Assembly: GCA_009692005.1 (NCBI GenBank)
Contig: SHZZ01000007.1
Location: 1 to 64,000 of the forward strand
DNA: 64,000 bases
Source: Gemmataceae bacterium
GTDB lineage: Bacteria > Planctomycetota > Planctomycetia > Gemmatales > Gemmataceae
Reading direction: 5' to 3'
This document shows, piece by piece, positions 11,468 to 17,551 of the stretch; the first letter of the stretch is position 1; each line of letters opens with the position of its first letter. The position numbers and the translations under genes are program-made. The notes below the pieces were generated by a model. That model ran no database searches. It was not told where the DNA came from and saw nothing but the letters and a program-made list of their open reading frames with translations.

Positions 11468-13036
11468 TCATTTCTGGACTCTTGGAAGAAGCGGTTTGAC
11501 CTTGCCGCCTTCCAATTGCGCCAGAATTTTCAAATGGGGCGTCCCCGGCCCGCCTCCGATGGCATCGGCGTAGACGATCTCCTCCCACGGCTTGGTGAAA
11601 TTGAAACTTTGATAAATGGTAGCGGCCAGCTTGGGTAAAAACGGCTTCAGCAGGATCGACCCCGCTCGCAATGCCTCCACCAGGTGCGCCAACACCACCT
11701 TCGCTTTTTCCCGGTCGGCCTTTACCAGCGACCACGGCGCGGTCCGCTCGGCGTACTGATTGGCAGGGTCGAGCACCTTCATCCACAGTTTCTGCAGTGC
11801 CAAGTTGTACTGGCAGGATTCCACATGCAGGGCAATTTCCTTCACCGTGGCCTCCAGGGATCCGGATTCATAAAGGGAACCGATGCCGCTGGTTCCCACT
11901 TCGCCCAGGTCGCCTTCGTAATTTTTCCCAATCAGGCCGACCACCCGGCTGTAGAGGTTTCCCAGGTTGTTGGCCAGGTCGGAATTGTAAAGATCGACGA
12001 ACCGCTGGAGGCTGAATTCCCCGTCGCCGGGGAAGGGGCATTCCCGCAGGAAGTAGTAGCGGAAGGCTTCCGCACTGAAACGGGTGATGATGTCCATCGG
12101 CTCGACCACATTCCCCAGTGACTTGCTGATTTTTTGCACATCGCCAGTTTCTTCATTCTTGACATAGACAAAGCCATGGCCAAACACTCTCTTGGGCGGT
12201 TCGATGTCGGCAGCGAAGCACATGGCCGGCCAGAGCGCGCAATGGAAACGCGTGATGTCCTTGCCAATGACATGCAGCGCCGCCGGCCACCACTGGCGGA
12301 AGCGCTCATTGTCGCTGCCGTAGCCGATCGCAGTTATGTAGTTCAATAGCGCGTCGAACCAGACATAAATGGTGTACCCCTGGTCAAAGGGAACCGGGAT
12401 GCCCCAGGCCTGGCCAGAGCGGGTGATGTTGACATCGCGCAATTCCGTCTGCACCAGGCTGACGATCTCATTGCGGCGGCTTTCCGGCTGGATGAAATCC
12501 GGATTGGCTTCGTAAAACTCCAGAAGCTTCTCGCGAAACTTTGACAGGGCAAAGTAATAGCAGGGCTCCGACCGCCGGATGGCCGGAGCTTTGTGGCTGG
12601 GACAGTGCTTGTTCTCGTCCAGTTCCTTCTCGGTTTTGAAAGCTTCGCAGCCCTCGCAATACCAGCCCTCGTACTGCTGCTGGTAAATATGTCCGGCGTC
12701 GAACACTTTCTGAATGAAATCCTTGCAGCCCTTGTGGTGCCTGGGCTCGCTGGTCTGAATGAAGTCATCGAAGCTGATGTCCAGTGCGCGCCAGACTTCT
12801 TTAAACTGCCTGGCCATGTCGTCGCAGTATTCTTGCGGCTGCTGGCCGAGTTCTTGCGCCCGCCGGGCCACTTTGATCGTGTTTTCATCATTGCCCATGA
12901 GGAAAAAAACTTCAAAGCCGTGCATGCGGCGGTAGCGGGCCTGGACATCGGCGCCGATTTTCTCGAAGGCCGTGCCGATGTGCGGCCTGCTGTTGGGGTA
13001 ATCAATGGCGGTGGTGAGGAAAAAGCGAGGTTTCAT
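11468..13036 (-). CDS. metG: Methionyl-tRNA synthetase
   Basis: A 522-residue class I aminoacyl-tRNA synthetase that charges tRNA-Met in the cytoplasm. Seen: the HIGH-type motif PHIGTA at about residues 18-23, a zinc-type CEGC..CPSH cluster in the connective domain (WYCEGCEAFKTEKELDENKH), the VWFDALLNYITA motif, and KISKS in place of KMSKS. The anticodon-binding helical domain follows (VESCQYNLALQKLW, NQYAERTAPWSLVK). It ends without the C-terminal tRNA-binding dimer domain of longer forms. I start at ATG 13036 (MKPRFFLTTAIDYPN), the conserved N-terminus; the upstream ATG at 13072 only adds 12 unlike residues. It is divergent from the aldo/keto reductase operon. Confidence 0.97.
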   Translation of the reverse strand: MKPRFFLTTAIDYPNSRPHIGTAFEKIGADVQARYRRMHGFEVFFLMGNDENTIKVARRAQELGQQPQEYCDDMARQFKEVWRALDISFDDFIQTSEPRHHKGCKDFIQKVFDAGHIYQQQYEGWYCEGCEAFKTEKELDENKHCPSHKAPAIRRSEPCYYFALSKFREKLLEFYEANPDFIQPESRRNEIVSLVQTELRDVNITRSGQAWGIPVPFDQGYTIYVWFDALLNYITAIGYGSDNERFRQWWPAALHVIGKDITRFHCALWPAMCFAADIEPPKRVFGHGFVYVKNEETGDVQKISKSLGNVVEPMDIITRFSAEAFRYYFLRECPFPGDGEFSLQRFVDLYNSDLANNLGNLYSRVVGLIGKNYEGDLGEVGTSGIGSLYESGSLEATVKEIALHVESCQYNLALQKLWMKVLDPANQYAERTAPWSLVKADREKAKVVLAHLVEALRAGSILLKPFLPKLAATIYQSFNFTKPWEEIVYADAIGGGPGTPHLKILAQLEGGKVKPLLPRVQK

Positions 13037-13266
13037 GCTGCATCCGTTTTTTTTACGCGGGAGAATCGCCATGGCTTTTTTAGAGGATTCAAGGCCAGAA
13101 AGTGAGCGGCCTTGAGGATTTTCCTAATCGTTTTAGGTCCAGGACCAGAATGCCACCGTTCCAGGCAAGGGCCCTGCCAACAAGAAGGCTATAACGGCCC
13201 CTCGCCAAAAAATTGGTCTTTTCTACCCTGCCATGCTAAGCTCCCGTTTTCCTTCCGGAGCAGAGC

Positions 13267-16412: not shown

Positions 16413-16440
16413 CCCGCCCTGAAGGGGCGGGGCTGCGTTT
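16413..16440 (+). terminator. Terminator-like hairpin after the oxidoreductase-MFS operon
   Basis: CCCGCCC at 16413-16419, loop TGAAG, GGGCGGG at 16425-16431, then GCTGCGTTT. The stem is strong but the T-tract is short, so termination may be incomplete or factor-assisted. Confidence 0.45.
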
Positions 16441-16470: not shown

Positions 16471-16498
16471 TTGACGGCGGTGAAGGGTGGCCTAGAAT
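16471..16498 (+). promoter_or_regulatory. Sigma-70-like promoter of the DUF1559 gene
   Basis: TTGACG at 16471-16476 and TAGAAT at 16493-16498 lie 16 bases apart, each matching consensus at five of six positions. An A-tract at 16459-16466, just upstream, could act as an UP element. The start of transcription would be near 16505, so the palindrome at 16515-16529 falls within the first 25 transcribed bases. Confidence 0.6.
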
Positions 16499-16514
16499 TG
16501 GGTCATGATGATTT

Positions 16515-16529
16515 TGAGACTCAGTCTCA
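16515..16529. promoter_or_regulatory. Fur-like 7-1-7 palindromic operator
   Basis: TGAGACT-C-AGTCTCA is a perfect 7-1-7 inverted repeat. A one-base centre cannot form a hairpin loop, so this is a DNA-level site for a dimeric repressor rather than an RNA structure. The layout matches the TGATAAT-n-ATTATCA form of Fur-family boxes (five of seven bases per arm). It lies just after the predicted transcription start and 17 bases before the ATG at 16547, where a bound repressor would block transcription. The regulator is not in this window. Confidence 0.55.
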
Positions 16530-16546
16530 TTTAAAAAGGTGTCCGC

Positions 16547-17551
16547 ATGATTTCCCGCAAAGCCTTCACCCTTATTGAGCTATTAGTAGTCATCGCCATC
16601 ATTGCCATCCTTATCGGTTTGCTATTGCCAGCGGTGCAAAAAGTCCGCGAGGCCGCCGCCCGCATGTCTTGCTCCAACAACCTGCGCCAGATTGGGTTGG
16701 CCTTGCACAATCACCAAGCCACCTTTGAGTACTTTCCCGTGGCCGGGGCTTACCCCATTGCCACCGCCCCTTCCACCCGCACCGCCAAGTCCTGGTCGGT
16801 TCTCGCCCGCCTGCTCCCCTTTGTCGAACAGGAAAACCTGCAGCGAGCCATTGATTGGAATACCGCCTACGACCTACAACCCAATGTGTGCAAGCAGCGG
16901 ATATCCATTTTTCTTTGCCCAAGCGATCCGAAAATTGCGCCGCGCATCAGCCCCACCCTGACCCATTACCCTTTGAACTACGCTGCCAGCATGGGTTCCT
17001 GGATGGTTTTCGATCCCAACCCAGCTTCCTTTGATGGCAAAGGTGGTGATGGCGCTTTCGCCGTCGGGCAAAAAGTCCGCATCAATGAATTCATCGATGG
17101 CACCAGCCAGACAATTGGCTTCGCTGAGGTGAAAAGCTACACCTCTTACCTGCGCGACGGAGGCAACCCCTCCGCAATTAACTCAGCCATTCCTACCACC
17201 GTGGCCCAAGTAGCCGGTTACCCCGGGAATTTTACTCTTGAAACAGGCCATACTGAATGGGTTGATGCCCGAGTTCACCAAACCGGCTTCACTACCACTT
17301 TTCCACCCAACACCAATGTCCCCTACACCAATGCCGGCACGGTCCACGACATCGACTTCAATTCCATGCGTGAAGGGAACGCCAACAACCGCATCACTTA
17401 CGCCGCGGTGACGGCTCGAAGTTACCACTCGGGCGTGGTCAACGCGGTGTTCATGGACGGGTCGGTGCGGAGCATTCAGAATTCAATTGACTTGAATAGC
17501 TGGCGGGCCTTGGGAACGCGCTCGGGCGGCGACCTGGGGCAGGTTCCCTAA
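16547..17551 (+). CDS. DUF1559 pseudopilin-like protein with H-x9-DG end
   Basis: A 334-residue protein of the DUF1559 family expanded in planctomycetes. Seen: a type IV prepilin leader [18 protein letters not shown] with cleavage expected after the basic KA-F site, a single N-terminal hydrophobic helix to about residue 28, then [16 protein letters not shown] (about 43-58), and near the C-terminus [15 protein letters not shown], a perfect H-x9-DG signature. It would be inserted in the inner membrane, processed by prepilin peptidase and displayed outside. The ATG follows AAAGGTGTCCGC. It has its own promoter and palindromic operator and converges on the 17-kb minus-strand array with 29 bp between them. 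Role unknown; structural or binding. Confidence 0.93.

Follow-up and report, generated by a model that had tools for sequence, protein, structure and literature searches.

The nearest counterpart among described systems is the binding site of Fur, an iron-sensing repressor, for which the classical consensus half-site is GATAAT and the classic mode of action is occlusion of RNA polymerase (PMC4506495). The control of feoAB and bfd by Fur is already known. DUF1559 is one of the largest groups of paralogous proteins in Planctomycetota, with 68 paralogues in Planctopirus limnophila (PMC10632474) and 74 in Rhodopirellula baltica (PMC2754498); the function of the family is unexplained, and earlier work considered no more than possible roles in solute binding or stress response (PMC2754498). 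The literature that we searched, which covers few subscription papers, contained no paper on DUF1559 together with Fur and no mention of the box sequence described below. It also held no paper on a Fur regulon of Planctomycetota, and its sole co-mention of DUF1559 and iron concerned iron-sulfur clusters, not DUF1559. Here, we analyzed a DNA stretch of 64,000 nucleotides from a Gemmataceae bacterium (hereafter, the window), in which a DUF1559 gene is preceded by a predicted Fur operator.

The DUF1559 gene and its upstream region

The features of the locus are as follows.

16471 to 16476, + strand: -35 element TTGACG, read from the sequence
16493 to 16498, + strand: -10 element TAGAAT after a 16-nt spacer, read from the sequence
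About 16505, + strand: predicted transcription start, from the position of the -10 element
16514 to 16530, + strand: predicted Fur operator TTGAGACTCAGTCTCAT, from motif comparison
16515 to 16529, + strand: core palindrome TGAGACTCAGTCTCA, perfect 7-1-7
16535 to 16541, + strand: ribosome binding site AAAGGTG, read from the sequence
16547 to 17551, + strand: DUF1559 (PF07596) pilin-like gene, 334 aa, with its ATG at 16547

The gene is probably transcribed alone, because the following gene has the opposite orientation. Its product matched PF07596 with an E value of 7e-45 (154.6 bits against a curated cut-off of 23.3). An N-terminal methylation/prepilin motif (N_methyl) and a C-terminal H-X9-DG motif were found, with TIGR04294 and TIGR02532 above cut-off, and a profile search gave 73 DUF1559 matches in the window's own genome. 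The N-terminal 60 residues matched geopilin and pilin chains of solved structures, and the GspG model matched the N-terminus with a score below its cut-off, whereas no sequence match among solved structures was found for the C-terminal part of about 270 residues. The predicted structure of the protein was of low confidence (mean pLDDT 56).

As for the surroundings of the gene, metG (methionyl-tRNA synthetase, 11468 to 13072) is separated from it by about three genes, and in a sister genus it is directly divergent from the DUF1559 orthologue. This suggests that the synteny of the two genes is conserved and that the aldo/keto reductase, MFS, and dehydrogenase genes were inserted here or lost in the sister genus. 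An inverted repeat without a T run, CCCGCCC-TGAAG-GGGCGGG, was observed at 16413 to 16431, 3' of the upstream dehydrogenase gene.

The original prediction had described a sigma-70-like promoter followed by a perfect 7-1-7 palindrome, and both were read directly from the sequence. TTGACG-16-TAGAAT agrees with the consensus at 10 of 12 positions and was the only sigma-70-type match between 16380 and 17640, where 0.7 matches were expected. The box is an inverted repeat with a one-base centre, TTGAGACT-C-AGTCTCAT, and occupies about +9 to +25 relative to the predicted transcription start. The perfect form of the palindrome was confirmed, but the form alone is no evidence, since the window contained nine perfect 7-1-7 palindromes against 5.75 +/- 2.6 in shuffled sequences. 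A number so close to expectation also fits a palindrome that arose by chance and has no regulatory role. It is not the bare form of the palindrome that is significant in the window, but its sequence identity.

Occurrence of the box before iron genes and DUF1559 genes

The window's own genome (4.19 Mb) was examined by pattern and family searches. When zero or one mismatch to TGAGACTNAGTCTCA was allowed, the window site stood alone in the 4.19 Mb; with two mismatches, three further sites appeared, making four in total. One of these three lies directly 5' of feoA-feoB, in which FeoA was confirmed by Pfam and FeoB is by far the best FeoB match of the genome and the only clear one. Another lies 5' of a Fer2_BFD (bfd-like [2Fe-2S]) gene; an Rrf2 gene and a cysteine-desulfurase-like gene stand back to back with it. 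The remaining site looks like a chance match. Accordingly, the scan for the box before iron genes, proposed with the original prediction, yielded sites 5' of feoAB and bfd in the same genome.

In related genomes, the box recurs as an extended 17-mer, TTGAGA(C/T)TNA(G/A)TCTCAA. Within one mismatch, TTGAGACTNAGTCTCAA was found at 27 sites in 21 of 41 genomes of the family, where the reversed pattern gave none, and in 113 of 198 genomes of the class, against four reversed-pattern matches. A tblastn comparison of the 900 bases downstream was used to classify 135 distinct sites: 54 belonged to DUF1559 (43 of them within 260 bases of the start), 36 to FeoA and/or FeoB, and 11 to Bfd, and 33 fell outside these classes. 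At one site, the box is flanked by FeoB and DUF1559, which brings the feo total to 37. DUF1559 is the most frequent single target of the box in this set, which was collected by motif from relatives that are not independent and in which DUF1559 genes are numerous. The sites outside the main classes include those of an FTR1 iron permease with a cupredoxin domain, PepSY_TM, ApbE-DUF2271, Rrf2, and a recurrent TPR protein.

Most boxes are imperfect, with one half-site changed; a perfect inverted repeat was seen at 2 of the 37 feo boxes. At some feo and bfd boxes, the half-site TTGAGAAT (GAGAAT type) replaces GAGACT, in a collection whose half-site counts lean towards the query. Families that seemed to be without the box mostly proved to have weaker variants 5' of feo (TGAGATTNAATCTCA, TGAGATTNATTCTCA).

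Several other features were noted at these sites. The TPR-repeat protein was the box target at seven loci. At six others, the box lies 5' of large proteins, of which the one examined combines a cupredoxin-like part with an FTR1 domain, and a methyltransferase-like gene is divergent at several of the six. A second imperfect palindrome, of the GAGACTTCGTCTCAA type, lies 3' of the box at two loci and is possibly part of a tandem operator. At four loci, GCCAGCCAG-like repeats were observed between the box and the start codon of box-bearing DUF1559 genes.

Subsequently, a scoring matrix was built from 48 feo and bfd sites alone. On this matrix, the window site scored 26.3 bits and the next best 17-mer in the 64 kb scored 2.4, while 400 shuffles of the upstream region gave a mean of -15.4 and a maximum of 9.6. 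The closest orthologue, which is 71% identical and belongs to a sister genus, carries TGAGACTCAGTATCA 3' of a TTGACA promoter. When the nearest relatives of the window protein were selected by protein similarity only, a box above the threshold of 8 bits was found in 12 of 29, two of these 12 being near the threshold. The original prediction would have been contradicted by a box that is missing in orthologues and before every metal gene; instead, the box was found at the 71% orthologue, at feoAB, and at bfd. The score on an independently trained matrix and the conservation of the box 5' of orthologues and relatives both argue against a chance palindrome, which we regard as very improbable.

Most DUF1559 genes are without the box: it was missing before about 60% of the nearest relatives and before all 28 other paralogues tested in the window's own genome. 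When box presence was mapped onto a tree of 118 DUF1559 proteins, it required 19 changes against 39.3 to 39.7 in shuffled labels (none of 500 as low), a clustering that is inflated by near-copies and by motif-based collection. The box-bearing proteins form at least three subgroups on this tree. At one locus, the box, the DUF1559 gene, and a PepSY_TM-like gene (a weak match, below the Pfam cut-off) stand in a row; at two others, a DUF4198-DUF3386 gene and a Kelch-repeat gene, respectively, come next after the DUF1559 gene with the box. We also asked whether GHTEWVDG-VH, a motif conserved in the DUF1559 subgroup of the window gene, is a metal site that distinguishes the box-bearing members; it was equally common in close relatives without the box.

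Promoter geometry and the candidate regulator

TTGAC was found 5' of the box in 58 of 91 oriented sites, against 5.9 expected, mostly 30 to 45 nt ahead. Where a -10 element matching at four or more positions follows, it ends at -17 to +2 relative to the box, and the box of many feo and bfd genes begins 2 to 9 nt past this element. A box placed at the -10 element or immediately past it has the layout of a repressor operator. The palindrome could instead act as an RNA hairpin in the 5' leader, and the box of the window gene is indeed probably inside the transcript. However, this reading is disfavoured because the box overlaps the transcription start at many feo and bfd sites, where it would be partly untranscribed. 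Furthermore, the mostly imperfect repeats suit a protein dimer better than a stem, so we consider an RNA hairpin highly unlikely.

We then compared the possible regulators. The window's own genome has a single match to PF01475 (Fur), with an E value of 1.5e-21, and an alignment with solved Fur structures showed that this protein keeps the C-X2-C pairs, the H-D-H stretch, and the Y-R pair of the DNA-reading helix. A scan with the feo/bfd matrix found no box near the fur gene of this genome. Fur was present in 59 of 60 genomes, the exception being a box genome that is perhaps incomplete; Rrf2 and DtxR-family proteins were present in all 33 box genomes tested. Hence, the presence of a regulator does not discriminate between the candidates.

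The box might be read by another iron or iron-sulfur regulator, of the Rrf2 family (RirA/IscR-like) or the DtxR family, in which case the gene would still be iron-controlled. Besides the occurrence of both protein families in every box genome tested, the Rrf2 gene adjoining the bfd box of the window's own genome and a box 5' of an Rrf2 gene in another genome are consistent with Rrf2, and RirA sites also have the form TGA-N9-TCA. The location of the box in other phyla speaks for Fur. When GTDB genomes were scanned for the exact 17-mer and the downstream genes were compared with Fur, Fur was found downstream of at least 13 sites (13 of 116 among the matches listed). Among these listed matches, the 17-mer lies 5' of fur in Omnitrophota, Latescibacterota, WS1, Bdellovibrionota, Chloroflexota, Fidelibacterota, and Spirochaetota, often in fur-feo operons and at distances from the start that range from a few to about 30 bases. 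Since the exact 17-mer stands directly 5' of fur in at least about seven phyla, it points to autoregulation of Fur, and this position is the strongest discriminator between the regulators. No comparable recurring link with DtxR genes was noticed in this comparison, which was directed at Fur. The GAGAAT half-sites, which we take to be of the Fur type, also occur in the families with divergent boxes as well as at some feo and bfd boxes, and likewise argue against an Rrf2 or DtxR-family protein, which we regard as an unlikely reader of the box.

Taken together, the feoAB, bfd, FTR1, PepSY_TM, and ApbE genes in the window's own and related genomes and fur in other phyla lend comparative support to the Fur-box reading of the original prediction, and these findings strongly suggest that the palindrome is an operator of Fur. 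As a separate observation, TCGAGAATNATTCTCGA-like palindromes occur near, and apparently 5' of, Fur-family genes at four loci of one related family; they are perhaps a second Fur-family box, belonging to a paralogue.

Predicted iron response and comparison with known systems

The box matches the site found 5' of iron-uptake genes in the same and in related bacteria, so iron supply very probably controls the DUF1559 gene of the window. With ample Fe(II), the only Fur protein of the genome would bind the box as a dimer, at about +9 to +25, and transcription of the gene would cease. Under iron shortage, the gene would be expressed alongside feoAB, for ferrous iron import, and bfd, for release of stored iron. 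The simplest guess, which fits this predicted co-regulation, is that the pilin-like protein aids iron gain at the cell surface. A broader proposal is that a subset of DUF1559 proteins assembles into a surface structure produced specifically in response to iron starvation, as a pilin-based device for gaining iron that is typical of Planctomycetota; we regard this as tentative and rather doubtful. If true, it would give one branch of DUF1559 a physiological role. In any case, an iron box 5' of a clustered DUF1559 subset provides a testable condition (iron limitation) and a candidate regulator (Fur) for this family, and the box sites outline a predicted iron regulon in Planctomycetota.

Compared with described Fur boxes and regulons, the box is likewise an odd-centred inverted repeat at promoters of iron import genes and of fur, the single Fur of the genome aligns with solved Fur structures, and the layout fits the classic occlusion of RNA polymerase (PMC4506495). 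The common half-site here is GAGACT or GAGATT, in contrast to the classical GATAAT (PMC4506495), and the predicted regulon differs in including a pilin-like DUF1559 gene. The window protein resembles type IV pilins and type II secretion pseudopilins in its N-terminal 60 residues and differs from them in its 270-residue C-terminal part. With the DUF1559 family of Planctomycetota it shares the prepilin motif, the H-X9-DG C-terminus, and very many paralogues, whereas the iron box sets this member and a clustered subset apart from the rest of the family.
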